A stretch of DNA of 43,372 nt from Bacteroidales bacterium (GTDB lineage Bacteria; Bacteroidota; Bacteroidia; Bacteroidales; UBA932): assembly GCA_017465225.1 (NCBI GenBank), contig JAFTWQ010000027.1:1-43372 (forward strand). Direction: 5' to 3'. The translations under genes and the position numbers were made by a program. Positions within the stretch are counted from its first letter, which is position 1. Each line of letters opens with the position of its first letter. This document shows positions 2,157 to 34,562 of this stretch, one piece after another. The notes beneath the pieces are model-generated. The model was not told where the DNA came from. It searched no databases and saw only the letters and a program-made list of their open reading frames with translations.

Positions 2157-3209
2157 ATGCAAATGAAAAAGATATTTTTATTGTTTCTTGTCGTCTTCGG
2201 CATTACAGCGGCGGCAGGGCCTGGAACAGACAAGTCACCGCAGGCTGTCTACATCGAGAAATACTCATCTCTTGCAGTCGAGGAAATGTACCGCAGCGGT
2301 GTACCTGCCAGCATTACCCTGGCTCAAGGTCTTCTTGAGTCCGGATATGGCCTTTCCGAGCTTGCAGTAGAGGCGAACAACCATTTCGGCATAAAGTGCC
2401 ATAACTGGGCTGGAGCTAAGATCTTCTATGACGATGATAAGAGAAATGAATGTTTCCGTCGTTATGCGTCGCCAGAAGAATCTTTCCGCGACCATTCGGA
2501 TTTTCTGCGTTATCGTGACAGATACAAGTTCCTGTTCAATCTTGAACCGGGAGACTACAAAGGCTGGGCTCATGGCTTGAGGAAGGCCGGCTATGCGACA
2601 GATCCTGCATATCCGCAGAAACTTATCAGGCTTATCGAGGAATATGAACTGTATAGGTTTGATGTTCTTGAGGAGGAACCTGTCATTGCAGAGCAGCAGC
2701 CTGTAGAGAAGACCAGGCTTACGAAAGAGGAGCGCAGAGCCTTGAGGCAGAGCCGCAAGGAGGCAAGAAAGGAAGCGCGCAGAGAGCTCCCTGAAGCTCC
2801 TGACCAGATCGAACAGCCTAAGCCGGTACGCCCGGAGGAGGGCGAGGTCTTCCGTTTCCCTTTGTCAAGGCAGCTGTATTCGCTTAACGGAGTGCCTTTC
2901 ATATATGCCGCAAAGGGAGAGACATATGCTGCCATAGCAGAGGCTAACAATCTGTTCCTTAAGGAGATATTGAAGTATAACGATCTCGATCATGAGGCTC
3001 ATCTCGAACCGGGAACGATCGTCTACCTCCAGGCGAAGAAGAAACAGGCTGCTCCGGGTATGAACATGTATATCGTGGACGGCGAGGATGTCGGTCTTTG
3101 GGAACTCTCGCAGAGGTTTGGCGTGAAGGTCCAGAATCTGGCCCGAATGAATAATGTCACGGTCAATCATGTCTTCAGCGACGGACAGATAATCAAATTA
3201 AGAAAATAA
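2157..3209 (+). CDS. Exported glucosaminidase (GH73-type) with two LysM domains
   Basis: The 350-aa secreted peptidoglycan hydrolase is predicted to cleave N-acetylglucosaminyl bonds in the cell wall. Residues 1-20 form a signal peptide. The catalytic domain spans about residues 30-170 and carries the GH73 signature QGLLESGYGLSELA, with the likely catalytic Glu at residue 61, then NNHFGIKC and a YR/FRxYxSxxES region. A Lys/Arg/Glu-rich linker (about 180-225) leads to two LysM-like domains at about 250-291 and 305-349, which would bind peptidoglycan. An ATG at 2157 was chosen rather than an in-frame upstream start inside rnz, because it gives a clean signal peptide. mltG follows after 9 bases, so the two wall enzymes form an operon. 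Confidence 0.9.
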   Translation: MQMKKIFLLFLVVFGITAAAGPGTDKSPQAVYIEKYSSLAVEEMYRSGVPASITLAQGLLESGYGLSELAVEANNHFGIKCHNWAGAKIFYDDDKRNECFRRYASPEESFRDHSDFLRYRDRYKFLFNLEPGDYKGWAHGLRKAGYATDPAYPQKLIRLIEEYELYRFDVLEEEPVIAEQQPVEKTRLTKEERRALRQSRKEARKEARRELPEAPDQIEQPKPVRPEEGEVFRFPLSRQLYSLNGVPFIYAAKGETYAAIAEANNLFLKEILKYNDLDHEAHLEPGTIVYLQAKKKQAAPGMNMYIVDGEDVGLWELSQRFGVKVQNLARMNNVTVNHVFSDGQIIKLRK

Positions 3210-5969: not shown

Positions 5970-6967
5970 ATTGTCAGATCGTTTATTATTTTAATTTCCT
6001 CCTCACAGAAATCGGTGTTCTGGACAGCCTGCAGATTGTCGTCAAGCTGGCTGATGCTGCTGGCTCCCACGATCACGGAAGTCACAAGATCGTCCTTCAG
6101 TACCCATGAAAGGGCCATCTGCGCGAGGCTCTGGCCTCTGTCAGATGCTATCTCATCAAGCTTCTTCAGCTTTTCCATAAGTTCTGCAGTGATTGATGAT
6201 CTCTTGAGCGTGAAGTCTCTTGCCGCTCTTGAATCTTCCGGTATGCCGCCAAGGTATCTGTCTGTAAGCAGGCCCTGGGCGAGTGGCGAGAATGCTATGA
6301 ATCCGCTGCCGGCCTCCTTCGCCTGCTGCAGAAGTCCTTCGTTTTCAGGAACCCTGTGCAGGATGCTGTACTTGAGCTGATGCAGGAGACATGGGGTGTC
6401 GTGATATCTGAGATAATTGTATGCGTATTCCGCGGCCTCGACAGGATAATTCGATATGCCGGCATACAGTGCCTTTCCGCTGCGGACAATGTCGACAAGA
6501 GCCTGCATGGTCTCTTCGAGCGGAGTGTCCGGATCATAGCGATGTGAGTAGAAGATGTCGACATAGTCGACCTTCATCCTTTTGAGGCTCTGGTCAAGGC
6601 TGCTGATCAGGTACTTGCGCGAACCATGGTCCCCGTATGGCCCCGGCCACATGTCATATCCGGCCTTGGTGGAGATGAATAACTCGTCCCTGTATGGCTT
6701 GAGGTCCTTGTCCATTATGGCTCCGAATGTTGATTCGGCGCTTCCGTATGAAGGTCCGTAATTGTTCGCAAGGTCGAAATGGCAGATGCCTCTGTCGAAT
6801 GCATGGAGGATCATCTCCCTGCTGCGGGCAAGGGGGGCGGTATCGCCGAAGTTCTGCCAAAGTCCGAGGGATAATTCCGGAAGCATTATTCCGCTTCTTC
6901 CGCATCTGCGGTACTTCATGCCGCTGTCATAGCGGCCTTTGTCTGCTGTGTATACAGGGTTGATCAT
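5966..6967 (-). CDS. gpr: Aldo/keto reductase, L-glyceraldehyde 3-phosphate reductase type
   Basis: The 333-aa protein closely follows E. coli Gpr/YghZ, an NADPH-dependent aldo/keto reductase acting on L-glyceraldehyde 3-phosphate and related aldehydes. Matching blocks include YRRCGRSG, LPELSLGLWQNFGD, STKAGYDMWPGPYG and SGKALYAGISNY. The catalytic tetrad is Asp65, Tyr70 (FDLANNYGPSYG), Lys101 and His142 (FYSHRYD). The ATG at 6967 was preferred over an in-frame TTG at 6982, because a -7 box at 6990-6997 would put the transcription start close to that TTG. It is the first gene of an operon with murI and the deacetylase. No clear metabolic link to MurI is known, so grouping may be incidental. 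Confidence 0.9.
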   Translation of the reverse strand: MINPVYTADKGRYDSGMKYRRCGRSGIMLPELSLGLWQNFGDTAPLARSREMILHAFDRGICHFDLANNYGPSYGSAESTFGAIMDKDLKPYRDELFISTKAGYDMWPGPYGDHGSRKYLISSLDQSLKRMKVDYVDIFYSHRYDPDTPLEETMQALVDIVRSGKALYAGISNYPVEAAEYAYNYLRYHDTPCLLHQLKYSILHRVPENEGLLQQAKEAGSGFIAFSPLAQGLLTDRYLGGIPEDSRAARDFTLKRSSITAELMEKLKKLDEIASDRGQSLAQMALSWVLKDDLVTSVIVGASSISQLDDNLQAVQNTDFCEEEIKIINDLTI

Positions 6968-6989
6968 AGCTTTAAATGTCAAGTTACTG

Positions 6990-6997
6990 CAAATATA
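6990..6997 (-). promoter_or_regulatory. -7 promoter box for the reductase-murI-deacetylase operon
   Basis: On the minus strand this reads TATATTTG, a perfect TAnnTTTG box, followed by CAGTAAC. It lies 22 bases from the ATG at 6967. A divergent box for asnA is 12 bases away on the other strand, so the two operons share one short regulatory region. Confidence 0.7.
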
Positions 6998-7009
6998 CTC
7001 TTTTTTGCT

Positions 7010-7017
7010 TAATTTTG
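7010..7017 (+). promoter_or_regulatory. -7 promoter box for asnA
   Basis: TAATTTTG fits TAnnTTTG exactly and lies 22 bases before the asnA ATG at 7040. It is back to back with the promoter of the divergent reductase operon. Confidence 0.65.
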
Positions 7018-7039
7018 TCTTGTATATGAAACTGTGCTT

Positions 7040-8077
7040 ATGTCATTGATGATACCTCAAGGCTACCGCAATCTCCTGGGAAGTCTTGAAAATACGGAAA
7101 AGGCCATCAAGGCCGTCAAGGAAATGTTCCAGGACAATCTGTCCGCGCAGCTGGCCCTGCTGAGGGTGACGGCTCCCATGGTGGTGATGAGCGGTATGGG
7201 CCTGAATGATGACCTGAATGGCGTGGAAAGCCCTGTGGCTTTTCCGGTTAAGGATATGGAAGGCCGAAGTGCCGAGGTCGTGCATTCGCTTGCAAAATGG
7301 AAAAGGCTGAAGCTCGCGCAGATGGGTGTGCCTCAGGGAAGAGGCATATATACCGATATGAATGCTTTGAGGCCGGAAGAGGATCTTGATAACATCCATT
7401 CCATATATGTGGATCAGTGGGACTGGGAGAAGGTCATCACTGAAGATCAGCGTAACCTGGATTTCCTGAAGAAGACCGTCCGCAGGATATATGAGGCGAT
7501 AAAGGTGACAGAGAACAAGCTTTATGTGGAGTTCCCGCAGATCGAGCCTATGCTTCCGGAGAATGTCTTCTTCATTCATTCTGAAGAACTTCTTCAGAGA
7601 TATCCGGACATGACTCCGAAGGAAAGGGAGGACGCCGTTACGAAGGAATATGGGGCTGTCTTTGTCATAGGCATAGGAGGAAAGCTGTCGGACGGGTCTG
7701 TCCATGACGGGCGTTCGGCCGATTATGATGACTGGACCACTCCGAATGAGGATGGGTATCTTGGTCTGAACGGTGACCTTCTTCTGTGGAATCCTGTGCT
7801 CGGCCATGCCTTCGAGATATCAAGCATGGGAATAAGGGTGGATGCAGATGCTCTCGCGCGGCAGCTTGAACTTCGCGGGGAGACCGGCAAGTCCGGCCTG
7901 CTGTATCACAGGCTCCTGCTGGAGGGCGGACTTCCGCTTACTGTCGGCGGCGGTATCGGCCAGTCCAGATTGTGCATGTTCCTTTTGAGGAAGGCCCATA
8001 TCGGTGAGATACAGAGCAGCGTGTGGCCGGAAAGGATGAGGAAAATGTGCCATGAGGCAGGGATTGACCTTGTATAG
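7040..8077 (+). CDS. asnA: Aspartate-ammonia ligase (asparagine synthetase A)
   Basis: The 345-aa product makes asparagine from aspartate, ammonia and ATP. It belongs to the class II aminoacyl-tRNA synthetase-like AsnA family. Diagnostic blocks are VVHSLAKWKR, MNALRPEED, YVDQWDWEKV, IGIGGKLSDG, PDYDDW-type ADYDDWTTP, ISSMGIRVD and the C-terminal GGGIGQSRLCMFLL. Length is close to E. coli AsnA (330 aa). An in-frame GTG at 7034 is possible; ATG at 7040 was chosen for its distance from the -7 box. A weak 5-bp hairpin (8078-8095) followed by T5 may end the transcript just before prfB. Confidence 0.95.
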   Translation: MSLMIPQGYRNLLGSLENTEKAIKAVKEMFQDNLSAQLALLRVTAPMVVMSGMGLNDDLNGVESPVAFPVKDMEGRSAEVVHSLAKWKRLKLAQMGVPQGRGIYTDMNALRPEEDLDNIHSIYVDQWDWEKVITEDQRNLDFLKKTVRRIYEAIKVTENKLYVEFPQIEPMLPENVFFIHSEELLQRYPDMTPKEREDAVTKEYGAVFVIGIGGKLSDGSVHDGRSADYDDWTTPNEDGYLGLNGDLLLWNPVLGHAFEISSMGIRVDADALARQLELRGETGKSGLLYHRLLLEGGLPLTVGGGIGQSRLCMFLLRKAHIGEIQSSVWPERMRKMCHEAGIDLV

Positions 8078-27130: not shown

Positions 27131-28600
27131 ATGAAAAGATATGCTTTTATTGCGGCTCTTGCCGCTTTGTCTGCAGGAACAGCTGCATATGCACAGCAGC
27201 CTGCCGGTGCTCCGGAAGGAGGTATTTCGCCAGAGATGCTGGCAGAGATCAGCAAGGGATATGAAGGCGATGCTGATGACAAGGCCATCAGGAACGCCCT
27301 CGCCTTGACTCCTATAGGAACTTTGGCTATCAATGCCGAGAATGCGGCCATGATAGACACCCATTTCTCTGACAGGGTCAGGACAAAGGGCATCACAGAC
27401 CAGAAGTCTTCCGGAAGATGCTGGCTTTTTACCGGACTCAATGTGCTCAGGGCCAAGATGATAGATAAGTATGAACTTCCTGGGATGGAGTTCTCGCAGA
27501 ATTACCTCTTCTTCTATGACCAGCTTGAAAAGTCGAATCTTTTCCTTCAGGGAATCATCGATACCAAGGAACTGCCGTTTGACGACAGGAAGGTGGACTG
27601 GCTGTTCTCCAACCCGCTCAGCGACGGAGGTCAGTTCACAGGTGTGTCGAATCTGATTACAAAGTATGGTCTTGTGCCTGCCGAGGCGATGCCGGAGACA
27701 TATCAGTCGGACAATACATCCCAGATGGCGACCCTCCTCAAGCTGAAGCTTCGTGAGGACGGACTCGCTTTGCGCGAGGCCTATGAAAGCTGGGTTGCGA
27801 CGACTTCAGGAATGTCTTCGAGAAAGAAGGCCATAGCTATGGAGAACCTTGAAAGGCAGCTTCAGGACATGAAGGTGCAGCAGCTCTCGGAAATCTACAG
27901 GATGCTCGCGCTCTGCCTTGGCGAGCCTGTGAAGGAGTTCGAGTGGACAAGATGCGACAAGGACAACAATGTCGTGAGCCGCAAGACATATACTCCGAAG
28001 TCTTTCTATGATGAATTCATCGGTGAGGACCTCGAGAACAACTATGTCATGATCATGAATGACCCGTGCCGCGAATATGGCAAGGTCTATGAAATCGATT
28101 ATGACAGACATGTGTATGACGGCCATAACTGGCTGTATGTCAATCTCCCTGTGGAGCGCATCAAGGAAATGGCGATTGCTTCGATCAAGGACAATGTGGC
28201 AATGTATTTCTCATGTGATGTGGCCAAGTTCTACAGCCGCAGCAAGGGTGTCCTCGATCTTGCGAACTTCGACTATGAGTCGCTTATGGGTGTTTCATTC
28301 GGCATGGACAAGAAGGAAAGGGTCCAGACTCATGCCAGCGGTTCGTCACATGCCATGACTCTTATCGCTGTGGATGTATGTCCGGAGACCGGAAAGCCTG
28401 TGAAGTGGATGGTGGAGAACAGCTGGGGCCCGGCTTCAGGATACAAGGGATGTCTCATCATGACTGACGAGTGGTTTGACGAGTACATGTTCCGTCTTGT
28501 GGTCGAGAAGAAATATGTACCTGCTGACGTACTCAAGATGCTCGAGCAGGAGCCTGTACAGCTCCCTGCATGGGATCCTATGTTCCAGCCTGAAATATGA
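27131..28600 (+). CDS. Exported C1B cysteine peptidase (aminopeptidase C / bleomycin hydrolase family)
   Basis: The 489-aa product has a signal peptide (MKRYAFIAALAALSAGTAAYA) and is predicted to act in the periplasm, unlike the cytosolic PepC enzymes of Gram-positive bacteria. The papain-like triad is visible: Cys97 (SSGRCWLFTGLN), His407 (GSSHAMTLIAV) and Asn430 (VENSWGPASG). The long insert between them is usual for C1B peptidases, which trim N-terminal residues as self-compartmentalised hexamers. An earlier in-frame start at 27029 would cross a terminator and is rejected. The next gene overlaps its stop by 4 bases. Confidence 0.9.
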   Translation: MKRYAFIAALAALSAGTAAYAQQPAGAPEGGISPEMLAEISKGYEGDADDKAIRNALALTPIGTLAINAENAAMIDTHFSDRVRTKGITDQKSSGRCWLFTGLNVLRAKMIDKYELPGMEFSQNYLFFYDQLEKSNLFLQGIIDTKELPFDDRKVDWLFSNPLSDGGQFTGVSNLITKYGLVPAEAMPETYQSDNTSQMATLLKLKLREDGLALREAYESWVATTSGMSSRKKAIAMENLERQLQDMKVQQLSEIYRMLALCLGEPVKEFEWTRCDKDNNVVSRKTYTPKSFYDEFIGEDLENNYVMIMNDPCREYGKVYEIDYDRHVYDGHNWLYVNLPVERIKEMAIASIKDNVAMYFSCDVAKFYSRSKGVLDLANFDYESLMGVSFGMDKKERVQTHASGSSHAMTLIAVDVCPETGKPVKWMVENSWGPASGYKGCLIMTDEWFDEYMFRLVVEKKYVPADVLKMLEQEPVQLPAWDPMFQPEI

Positions 28601-29040
28601 TGCATATGATCAGGAAATTGTTTTTTGCGGCAGCGTTTGCCGTATTGTTTGTCTTGACCGGCTGTAACAAGCCTGGTGATCAGGACTGGACCGGAATGGA
28701 ATATATCACCTTTGATGTCAAGGGACGTGTGACTGATGCGGCCGGCAATACCCTGGAAGGCATCGGCGTGAAGACGGTATATGGCGAAGAGGTGTTCACC
28801 GATGCTTCGGGTTTCTTTCAGGTGTCCGGTTCATGCAAGCCGTTGACAGAGGTCAACGTGGAGTGCGTGGACAGGGATGGAGAGGCCAACGGAGTGTTCA
28901 TGAAGACAGTGAAGAAGGTCAAGCTTGAATTCGTCGGGGGAGCGCATGGCCCATATCAGGGTAAGTATGAAGCAACCGGTGTGGTGATTGTCATGCAGAT
29001 TGAGGCGGAGATTACTCCCGGAAATCCTGAAGTGATGTAA
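28597..29040 (+). CDS. Small lipoprotein with carboxypeptidase-regulatory-like domain
   Basis: The 147-aa product has a lipoprotein signal (FVLTGCNK). A beta-sandwich of the carboxypeptidase regulatory/CnaB-like type follows: FDVKGRVTDAAGNTLEGIGV then VFTDASGFFQVSG. Small lipoproteins of this sort are sometimes annotated in Bacteroidota as radical-SAM-associated, but no radical SAM gene is nearby, so I do not use that name. Three closely spaced ATGs (28597, 28600, 28606) can serve; the first overlaps the peptidase stop by 4 bases. Its role is unknown; coupling suggests it travels with the peptidase. Confidence 0.75.
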   Translation: MMHMIRKLFFAAAFAVLFVLTGCNKPGDQDWTGMEYITFDVKGRVTDAAGNTLEGIGVKTVYGEEVFTDASGFFQVSGSCKPLTEVNVECVDRDGEANGVFMKTVKKVKLEFVGGAHGPYQGKYEATGVVIVMQIEAEITPGNPEVM

Positions 29041-32535: not shown

Positions 32536-32550
32536 ACCTACGATAATTTG

Positions 32551-34437
32551 ATGAATATGAAAAAGTTATTGCTGGCTCTCGCTGCGGTGGCAGTGATGTC
32601 TTCTGCCTGTCATAAAGCCGAGGTTGAAGCTCCGGTAAATGAGCGCAGAGTGCTTGATGCAACTATAGAAAATATTGCCGTGACCAGGACTGTGATGGAT
32701 GAAGACAACAATATCCGTTGGTCGGAGGTGGATCAGATTGTGGGCTTTATGAAATCTACATTTGGTGCGAAATTCCAGGTGACCGGATCAAGTGTCGGCG
32801 AGACATCGGCAAGTTTTGAGGAGGTAAGCAGTGACGGGCTGAATGCCGGTACTGAACTTGACCATATCATCGCCTATTATCCATATTCATCTTCGGTAAA
32901 GATCGCAAAGTCGGGTCCCAACTATGCTCTGGATGTCGTTCTTCCTGCGGAGCAGACATATGTCCAGGAAAGTTTCGGCAATGGTGCAATGCCAATGGTT
33001 GCTGTAAGCGAGACTAACAACATCACCTTCAGGAATGTTTGCGGCGGCATGAAGCTCCAGCTTAAGGGAACACAGAAAGTCGCATCCGTAAAGGTAGAAG
33101 GCAAGAATGGCGAAATCCTTTCCGGCGCTGCTGTCGTTATCGCCTATACAGATGGAACCAAGCCTTCCATCACAATGTCCGACGAGACGTCCACATCAGT
33201 AACTCTCAATTGTGGTTCGGGGGTACAGCTCAATGAAAACGATGCAACAGAGTTCATCATTTCTCTCCCTCCTGTATTTTTCAGCCAGGGCTTTACCGTC
33301 ACAATTACAGATTCTGATGGAGAAACGCAAACAATAGAAACGGATAAAGCTAATGAGGTCAAAAGATCTTCAATTCTCGTGATGCCATATGTTACACTTG
33401 AATCATCAGATTCTTCCGTTTCTGAAGGGATAGATCTTGGACTTGTCGGAACCGCAAATTGTTATATTGTATCAGAGATCGGAATATATAGATTCACTCC
33501 TACCAAGGGTAATAGCAATGAATCCGTGGGAGACATCGCGTTTGCAGAGACTCTTTGGGAAACATTCGGAACAGATGTGACTCCGAATGTGGGTGATCTT
33601 GTCAAGAATGTGAAATATGCAGATGGAGCGATCAGTTTCGAGACTCCATCCCCATTCAAGGAAGGTAACGCCGTCATCGCAGCGAAGGACGCGTCAGGTA
33701 ATATTCTTTGGTCATGGCATATCTGGCTTACCGATGAGCCTCAGGGACAGGTTTATTACAACAACGCCGGCACAATGATGGATCGCAACCTCGGTGCTAC
33801 TTCTGCAACTCCGGGCGATGTGGGGGGGCTTGGTCTTCTGTATCAGTGGGGAAGGAAGGATCCTTTCTTGGGGTCTTCCTCAATAAACGAGGACATTTTT
33901 GCTAAATCTACAGCAAGATGGCCCTCATCCGTTTCGTCAGATTCAAGAGGAGCGATTGAGTACGCCATCTCTCATCCTATGACTTTCATTTCTGCTAATG
34001 AAAGTAATTGTGATTGGTATTATACAGGAAATGATGTAACCGACAATACACGTTGGACAACCTCTGATAAGCCCAAGTCAATTTACGATCCTTGTCCAGT
34101 AGGTTGGCGTGTTCCCGATGGTGGTGGTGATGGTATATGGTCAAGCGCTTGTGGATCTACATTATCCTTTGACGGTTATCCATACGACAGCTCAAACGAG
34201 GGCATGAATTTCTCAGGTAAGTTCGGACCAGCTACTACCATCTGGTATCCGGCTTCTGGTTTTCGCAACGATAGCGATGGCAGTCTCCGTTATGTAGGTT
34301 ACTACGGTTTTTGTTGGTCAGCATCGCCTTCCGTTTACAATGCGCACTACCTGTATTTCTACAAACTCGGTCGCGTCTATCCGTCTGACAGTAACTGGCG
34401 CGCGTTCGGCCATTCTGTTCGTTGTCTTCAAGAATAA
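32551..34437 (+). CDS. Surface lipoprotein: fimbrillin-like N-terminus with C-terminal FISUMP domain
   Basis: The 628-aa product starts with a lipoprotein signal (MKKLLLALAAVAVMSSAC). Residues about 30-290 resemble a fimbrillin-like (Mfa/FimA-type) domain: TRTVMDEDNNIRWSEVDQI, AYYPYSS and ITFRNVCGGMKLQLKG. From about 290 a Fibrobacter succinogenes major paralogous (FISUMP) domain follows, with MDRNLGATS, GLLYQWGRKDPF, DPCPVGWRVP and the closing SVRCLQE. Such two-part proteins are likely adhesins, possibly at a pilus tip. The last 40 codons have an unusual make-up (see the separate entry). ATG at 32551 or 32557 can serve as start. The 36-aa peptide precedes it, and a small barrel-like gene follows 125 bases later. 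Confidence 0.82.
   Translation: MNMKKLLLALAAVAVMSSACHKAEVEAPVNERRVLDATIENIAVTRTVMDEDNNIRWSEVDQIVGFMKSTFGAKFQVTGSSVGETSASFEEVSSDGLNAGTELDHIIAYYPYSSSVKIAKSGPNYALDVVLPAEQTYVQESFGNGAMPMVAVSETNNITFRNVCGGMKLQLKGTQKVASVKVEGKNGEILSGAAVVIAYTDGTKPSITMSDETSTSVTLNCGSGVQLNENDATEFIISLPPVFFSQGFTVTITDSDGETQTIETDKANEVKRSSILVMPYVTLESSDSSVSEGIDLGLVGTANCYIVSEIGIYRFTPTKGNSNESVGDIAFAETLWETFGTDVTPNVGDLVKNVKYADGAISFETPSPFKEGNAVIAAKDASGNILWSWHIWLTDEPQGQVYYNNAGTMMDRNLGATSATPGDVGGLGLLYQWGRKDPFLGSSSINEDIFAKSTARWPSSVSSDSRGAIEYAISHPMTFISANESNCDWYYTGNDVTDNTRWTTSDKPKSIYDPCPVGWRVPDGGGDGIWSSACGSTLSFDGYPYDSSNEGMNFSGKFGPATTIWYPASGFRNDSDGSLRYVGYYGFCWSASPSVYNAHYLYFYKLGRVYPSDSNWRAFGHSVRCLQE
34318..34434 (+). other. Possible diversity-generating retroelement variable region
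   Basis: The last 39 sense codons of the lipoprotein gene alternate between a conserved scaffold (SASPS, NA, LYF, PS, RA, SVRCLQE) and positions whose codons nearly all end in C or T. Examples are TAC, CTC, GGT, CGC, TTC and CAT. Each can arise from AAC or AAT by changes at adenines only, the fingerprint of DGR mutagenesis. A TGG and one AAA do not fit that rule. No template repeat or reverse transcriptase is present in the window, so this is an inference from codon pattern and from known DGR targeting of C-type-lectin-like C-termini. Confidence 0.4.
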
Positions 34438-34562
34438 TATTAAATCAGAGTATTTATTGCTCGTACTAAAAAAGGAGAGACGTCAGACCATTTCCACTTT
34501 TTTGTTTGTTCTAGTTCTTTTTTATTCTTACCTTGCAGAATCAACCTGACAAATAGAGACTT

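Follow-up and report, generated by a model that had tools for sequence, protein, structure and literature searches.

Does the surface lipoprotein gene treated here, from a Bacteroidales bacterium, end in the variable region (VR) of a diversity-generating retroelement (DGR), and if so, where are the template repeat (TR) and the reverse transcriptase (RT) that diversified it? The window, i.e., the whole stretch of 43,372 nucleotides that was analyzed, corresponds to contig C37 of a 2.35-Mb assembly of 90 contigs that is 78% complete. An earlier note on this DNA had read the last 39 codons of the gene as a DGR variable region on which a core would have to act from elsewhere, having seen neither RT nor template within the window. 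The latter observation is borne out.

The features of the gene are collected in Table 1. Its open reading frame opens with TTG at 32548, and the likelier start on reading the sequence is an ATG at 32551 or 32557. The motif SSAC, with its Cys codon at 32608-32610, is presumably the lipobox. All Pfam and NCBIfam matches of the protein are sub-threshold. Fib_succ_major (PF09603) shows a weak resemblance of 14.5 bits, which does not reach the gathering cut-off of 33.9, and the fimbrillin-like N-terminus proposed previously finds no support in the family models of either database. One sequence search against the PDB returned two chance-level matches and another none, and Foldseek against the PDB gave nothing at E 0.001. 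The predicted domain that carries the variable region is probably C-type-lectin-like and may bind a ligand. In the open-licence literature searched, no paper on this protein family was recognized; it may have been published elsewhere. At 28597-29037, the window also encodes a protein that scores 59.6 bits with TIGR04134 (radical SAM-associated putative lipoprotein family; cut-off 39.8).

Table 1. Features of the target gene and of the template remnant in a relative.
Feature	Position	Strand	Basis
Target gene, 629-aa ORF, secreted lipoprotein	32548..34437	+	ORF list; start and lipobox read from the sequence
C-terminal domain, conserved scaffold part	33712..34248	+	Homology with relatives
DGR variable region, 62 codons, gapless against the SIG150 and SIG151 templates	34249..34434	+	Template alignment
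Stretch singled out in the earlier note: last 39 codons of the region, holding 15 of its 23 template-AAY codons	34318..34434	+	Codon alignment
Stop codon and 3' flank, without hairpin	34435..34521	+	Folding z of -0.5 for the 90 bases 34432-34521
RGIG7684 template stub, 50 bases	L268, about 2170-2219	-	Comparison with SIG151

The case for a variable region had been built on codons that almost all end in C or T and could arise from AAC or AAT through changes at adenines alone. As a description of 34318-34434 this is accurate, including the TGG and AAA exceptions, but the coordinates are too short: the region begins at 34249, and eight of the 23 codons that align with AAY codons of a relative's template lie upstream of 34318. 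As evidence the criterion is weak, because the codons with such a possible origin are simply all those that end in C or T. It holds for 28 of the 39 codons, compared with 321 of the 565 that precede the variable region in the gene (p = 0.07); 28 C/T-ending codons are also reached in 5 of 527 other 39-codon stretches. The raw count was dropped as evidence for a DGR. More telling are the 23 window codons that pair with AAY codons of the SIG150 template (the closest complete system, see below), 21 of which end in C or T (one-sided p = 0.0004). The two that violate the third-base rule are AAA at 34363 and TGG at 34396. AAY templates do not account for them; they may go back to a difference in the region's own template or to subsequent point mutations.

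The C-terminal 241 residues have a match (E ≤ 1e-10) in 62 of the 150 relatives' genomes searched, and the domain occurs at a maximum of 18 places per genome (in G039). They also match 78 loci in named genomes, the closest of which, among those whose titles state a source, come from the rumen, cecum or rectum of ruminants. A search of viral contigs found no relative of the domain. Apart from the target itself, the own genome yields a single weak domain match (E 2.8e-4). The only relative of the domain found there besides the target is L011 (C10:19991-20479), an 874-aa ORF with two distantly related parts resembling the C-terminal domain. Compared with window positions 32554-33711, the N-terminal halves of L041, L046 and L060 are about 37% identical, while their C-terminal domains reach 61-69%. 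The diversified domain looks modular from such comparisons.

For a codon alignment, we kept from 98 distinct C-termini those that contain a [VI]RC motif, lack a stop codon and are at least 55% identical, which left 25 plus the window. Its last 62 codons divide into scaffold and hypervariable columns. Across the 25 relatives, the 23 template-AAY columns have mean entropies of 1.72, 1.43 and 0.75 bits at bases 1, 2 and 3, compared with 0.47, 0.50 and 0.89 bits in the other VR columns and 0.71, 0.71 and 1.27 bits in the upstream columns. The third base is C or T in 521 of 559 cells of the template-AAY columns, in 648 of 961 of the other VR columns and in 728 of 1108 upstream. Free first and second bases with a third base fixed as a pyrimidine are the pattern left by adenine mutagenesis of AAY codons.

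Members of the same domain family occur within complete DGR cassettes. RVT_1 is found in 60 of the 150 relatives (E ≤ 1e-5), a DGR RT alignment matches in 31 of them (1e-10), and at least two RTs, in G013 and in G054, follow directly on a family member. The loci L149 (G013), L150 (G054) and L154 (G084) each comprise target, accessory gene, template and RT. With the edges omitted, the TR/VR mismatches within the repeats proper lie at template adenines in L149 and L150, and L154 has one non-adenine mismatch inside. L149 encodes a 119-aa protein with a match to Pfam bAvd (4.4e-15) and a further one, below the cut-off, to the NCBIfam Avd model. When 14 RT loci were scanned automatically for TR/VR pairs, ten gave a candidate pair and L153, L158, L159 and L161 gave none. 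In L157 and L160, the RT is on the minus strand and the scan read the plus strand, which interchanges its TR and VR labels at these two loci. The weak pair proposed for L155 was rejected; the true L155 template is seen in other comparisons. Other DGR-like loci of the genus (L151 in G066:C168, L152 in G032:C8, L156 in G073:C14 and L162 in G029:C5) also have their TR/VR mismatches inside the repeat at adenines, and their targets look different. RT relatives with 38-47% identity are found at ten loci of viral contigs.

The closest complete system is that of the genome SIG150 (L051), where a MutS-I/Avd protein is followed by the template (7790-7975) and then the RT. The accessory protein (6859-7560) resembles MutS domain I in its N-terminal part (PF01624, 2.2e-5) and Avd in its C-terminal part (phrog_3206, 2.2e-7); these two parts, fused in L051, are separate genes in L149. 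The RT (RVT_1, 2.7e-17) carries YVDD and IGNLTSQ motifs and has relatives in Bacteroides and Bordetella phages, all below 60% identity. As in a DGR, an RT with the SQ motif, Avd and a TR stand beside a target. A SIG150 target on a separate contig of only 10 kb (L050) deviates from the template at 30 of its 56 adenines and at 1 of its 130 other bases. In total, the template has 13 matches in its own genome, namely itself, ten aligned VRs and two short unaligned ones (65 and 46 bases). The ten VRs mismatch the template at 21-34 of 53-56 adenines and at 2-21 of 129-130 other bases, counts that vary by one or two with the alignment ends. They are spread over six contigs, and eight of the VRs lie off the template's contig. 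L050 alone is near-perfect at non-adenine sites. In the VR that lies closest to the core, 18 non-adenine differences and a deletion are seen.

Set against the SIG150 template, the window's variable region is identical at 126 of 186 bases. At codon positions 1 and 2, it differs at 29 of 53 template adenines but at 5 of the 71 remaining bases (p = 6e-9), the latter made up of 1 of 23 C, 2 of 29 G and 2 of 19 T. This is a specificity measured with the template of another species rather than the region's own. The SIG151 template gives the same picture (A 30/53, non-A 9/71, p = 2e-7). As a control, the upstream part of the same domain compared with L050 shows no such bias (A 22/100, non-A 46/256, p = 0.45). 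Non-adenine third bases differ from the SIG150 template at 25 of 59 sites, against the 5 of 71 at first and second bases; all third bases taken together differ at 26 of 62 in the variable region (SIG150 template) and at 97 of 178 upstream (L050), as expected between species. The gene thus has a variable region at its 3' end that aligns to a template repeat and whose differences concentrate at template adenines, albeit of cross-species templates. Given also that homologous C-termini of relatives sit in DGR cassettes, we are highly confident that the C-terminus is a DGR-derived variable region, as the earlier note had read it.

The core itself is another matter. A search of the whole genome for template and RT, the check proposed beforehand, found neither in the assembled 78%. 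For the template, BLAST with the own VR, the G013 TR and the SIG150 TR gave nothing above chance. No RT was found with PF00078 (E 0.001), the DGR RT alignment (to E 10) or the SIG150 RT (E 0.001), and the SIG150 MutS-I/Avd protein had no match at E 0.001, all in this 78% complete assembly. In positive controls, the G054 VR finds its own template (E 2e-66), and the SIG151 template is found with the templates of G013 (73% identity, E 7e-25) and SIG150 (88% identity, E 5e-61). The SIG150 template search (E 0.01) missed the window's own VR, which means that it detects relatives' templates but not every VR. Since template, RT and Avd were sought in the own genome and not found, the locus is not filed as a complete DGR. 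As 22% of the genome is missing from the assembly, the core may be absent by chance, and mobile loci bin badly.

With moderate confidence, we interpret the gene as a DGR target that was left behind when its core was lost and whose variant has since been frozen. In an ancestor (or in an unassembled part of the genome), an AAC/AAT-rich template RNA would have been copied by an error-prone, adenine-misreading RT. The cDNA would have replaced the 3' end of the target gene, so that about 23 residues were randomized on a fixed scaffold. The target gene does not lie beside a core; it would have been a remote target, or the core would have been deleted. Most likely, the core is now gone from this genome, and the last variant would be retained, drifting like an ordinary gene. 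True absence of the core and a halt in diversification are inferred here.

Relatives show how such a loss may proceed. SIG151 (G039), an assembly that is 94% complete, keeps MutS-I/Avd and the template without an RT, and the homology with SIG150 stops at the template end; no RT was found in it by RVT_1 (1e-5), the DGR RT alignment (1e-10) or the SIG150 RT (0.001). At this locus (L209, G039:C2, 3246-4387), MutS-I/Avd is again a fusion. Six SIG151 VRs differ from their own template at 24-29 of 54-56 adenines and at 9-13 of 129-130 other bases, none of them being fresh; these six still share about 90% or more of the template's non-adenine bases, and further copies have about 29% or more non-adenine differences. 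In RGIG7684 (L268), the two flanks run collinear with those of SIG151, at 90% and 85% identity, and the exception is a 1,002-base deletion, which takes MutS-I/Avd and all of the template but its last 50 bases. Via the graded series SIG150, SIG151 and RGIG7684, the order of core loss becomes readable from sequence. Among 13 genomes selected for having the domain, several of them incomplete assemblies, an RT is found in one and not in 12, and a whole template in two and not in 11 (19-30-base matches and a weak partial RT match in G153, 4e-4, were left out). This pattern across relatives favors a target left behind over a core that acts from elsewhere.

Action from elsewhere is the main rival, though a less likely one: a core situated in the unassembled 22%, or borne by a mobile element, would continue to rewrite 34249-34434 in trans. 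The SIG150 VR on another contig agrees with its template at 129 of 130 non-adenine bases, SIG150 VRs are also found at a depth of 28 kb or more within a different contig of 111 kb, and cassettes persist in G013, G054 and G084. RT relatives on viral contigs and in phages, together with the 78% completeness of the own genome, likewise leave room for an active core. Yet a single domain-bearing genome of the 13 has an RT, the 94% complete SIG151 has none, the locus decays stepwise in relatives, and no Avd was found in the own genome at its 78% completeness. One observation weighs against the main reading: in G013, the cassette VR alone fits the template (non-adenine differences 3/136), while eight aligned remote copies differ from it at 25-42% of non-adenine bases, so that not every DGR of the genus now acts on remote copies.

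The sequence downstream of the variable region also bears on activity in trans. Strong inverted repeats lie 3' of many relatives' VRs, e.g., with 14-bp stems in SIG151 and RGIG7684, and a Bordetella phage target also has a hairpin downstream. Downstream of VRs in L051, L209, L267, L268 and L271, inverted repeats are in several cases followed by CATGCGTTTTG, and they are commoner after young VRs. A hairpin z of -2 or below is seen for 17 of 26 VRs with at most 20 non-adenine differences from the nearer template vs. one of eight with more (Fisher p = 0.014), in an exploratory test whose cut-offs were picked after the table was seen and for which two templates, the window and the RGIG7684 stub were dropped from 38 rows. 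One VR (L255, 8834) was scored as hairpin-less even though a 14-bp stem, cut by the 90-base fold, is present. Downstream of the window's variable region, the 90-base fold reveals no hairpin, which speaks against ongoing rewriting, although 9 of the 26 young VRs also fail the cut.

Alternatively, the gene may have been acquired, or recombined, in an already diversified state from a DGR-bearing relative, in a lineage that never had the core. This is unlikely as a separate history, though it overlaps the other readings. It would account for the one close copy in the own genome and for the higher identity of L041, L046 and L060 in the C-terminal domain (61-69%) than in the N-terminal half (about 37%). 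In addition, none of the seven other window genes queried matches the retrieved relatives' loci at 1e-8, a comparison that covers the locus flanks. On the other hand, the third-base divergence of the VR (26/62) is near or below the value for the rest of the domain (97/178), in line with descent alongside the genus. Finally, the gene could encode an adhesin without any DGR history, shaped by codon usage or by common diversifying selection. This would agree with the non-significant raw count (28 of 39 codons, p = 0.07) and with the lack of template and RT in the assembled genome, but is very improbable, as such selection would neither hold the third base as a pyrimidine with the first two free nor place the differences on adenines of another species' template, and homologues in cassettes show TR/VR pairs. 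Loss of the core with a frozen variant is favored over activity in trans, separate acquisition being possible and overlapping with both.

The gene resembles those of SIG150 (L051), G013 (L149), G054 (L150) and G084 (L154) in the C-terminal domain family, a similar VR scaffold and an AAY-rich template, and differs in that these have template, RT and an Avd-type accessory, which the window's genome as assembled lacks. Orphan and remote DGR targets are already known. Isolates of Treponema denticola carry two to seven targets, including remote targets, and leftover ones occur in strains without RT or TR (PMC4891356). The targets there are lipoproteins with VRs, and VRs of strains devoid of RT and TR differ from templates mostly at adenines, as here. 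The systems are dissimilar in host (a spirochaete, as opposed to Bacteroidales of, by the titles of named relatives, the animal gut) and in accessory gene (HRDC, as opposed to the MutS-I/Avd fusion in the closest core here), and intermediate stages of core loss at an orthologous locus are found here (PMC4891356). DGRs with multiple VRs and distant targets, including that of Pseudogulbenkiania NH8B, were described in 2012 (PMC3521204), trans activity in Thiohalocapsa PB-PSB1 (PMC10907252) and remote targets in cyanobacteria (PMC7517822). In these systems, remote VRs likewise match one template at non-adenine sites and incomplete loci occur, in other phyla and with other target types. Against this background, as far as these sources extend, the window gene is another orphan DGR target.

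Roux et al. (2021) state of their own survey that searching for VRs beside RTs misses remote and orphan targets (PMC8144416). An orphan variable region is recognizable by conservation of the third base together with the templates of relatives. For the genus as a whole, we tentatively propose that the DGR serves as a short-lived engine for building a repertoire: at least ten dispersed VRs would be diversified from a single template by a single RT, after which the core would be lost piecewise, the RT first and then Avd and template. The diversified surface proteins, the window gene among them, would be kept as fixed inherited variants, and a 3' hairpin may mark those copies that can still be rewritten.
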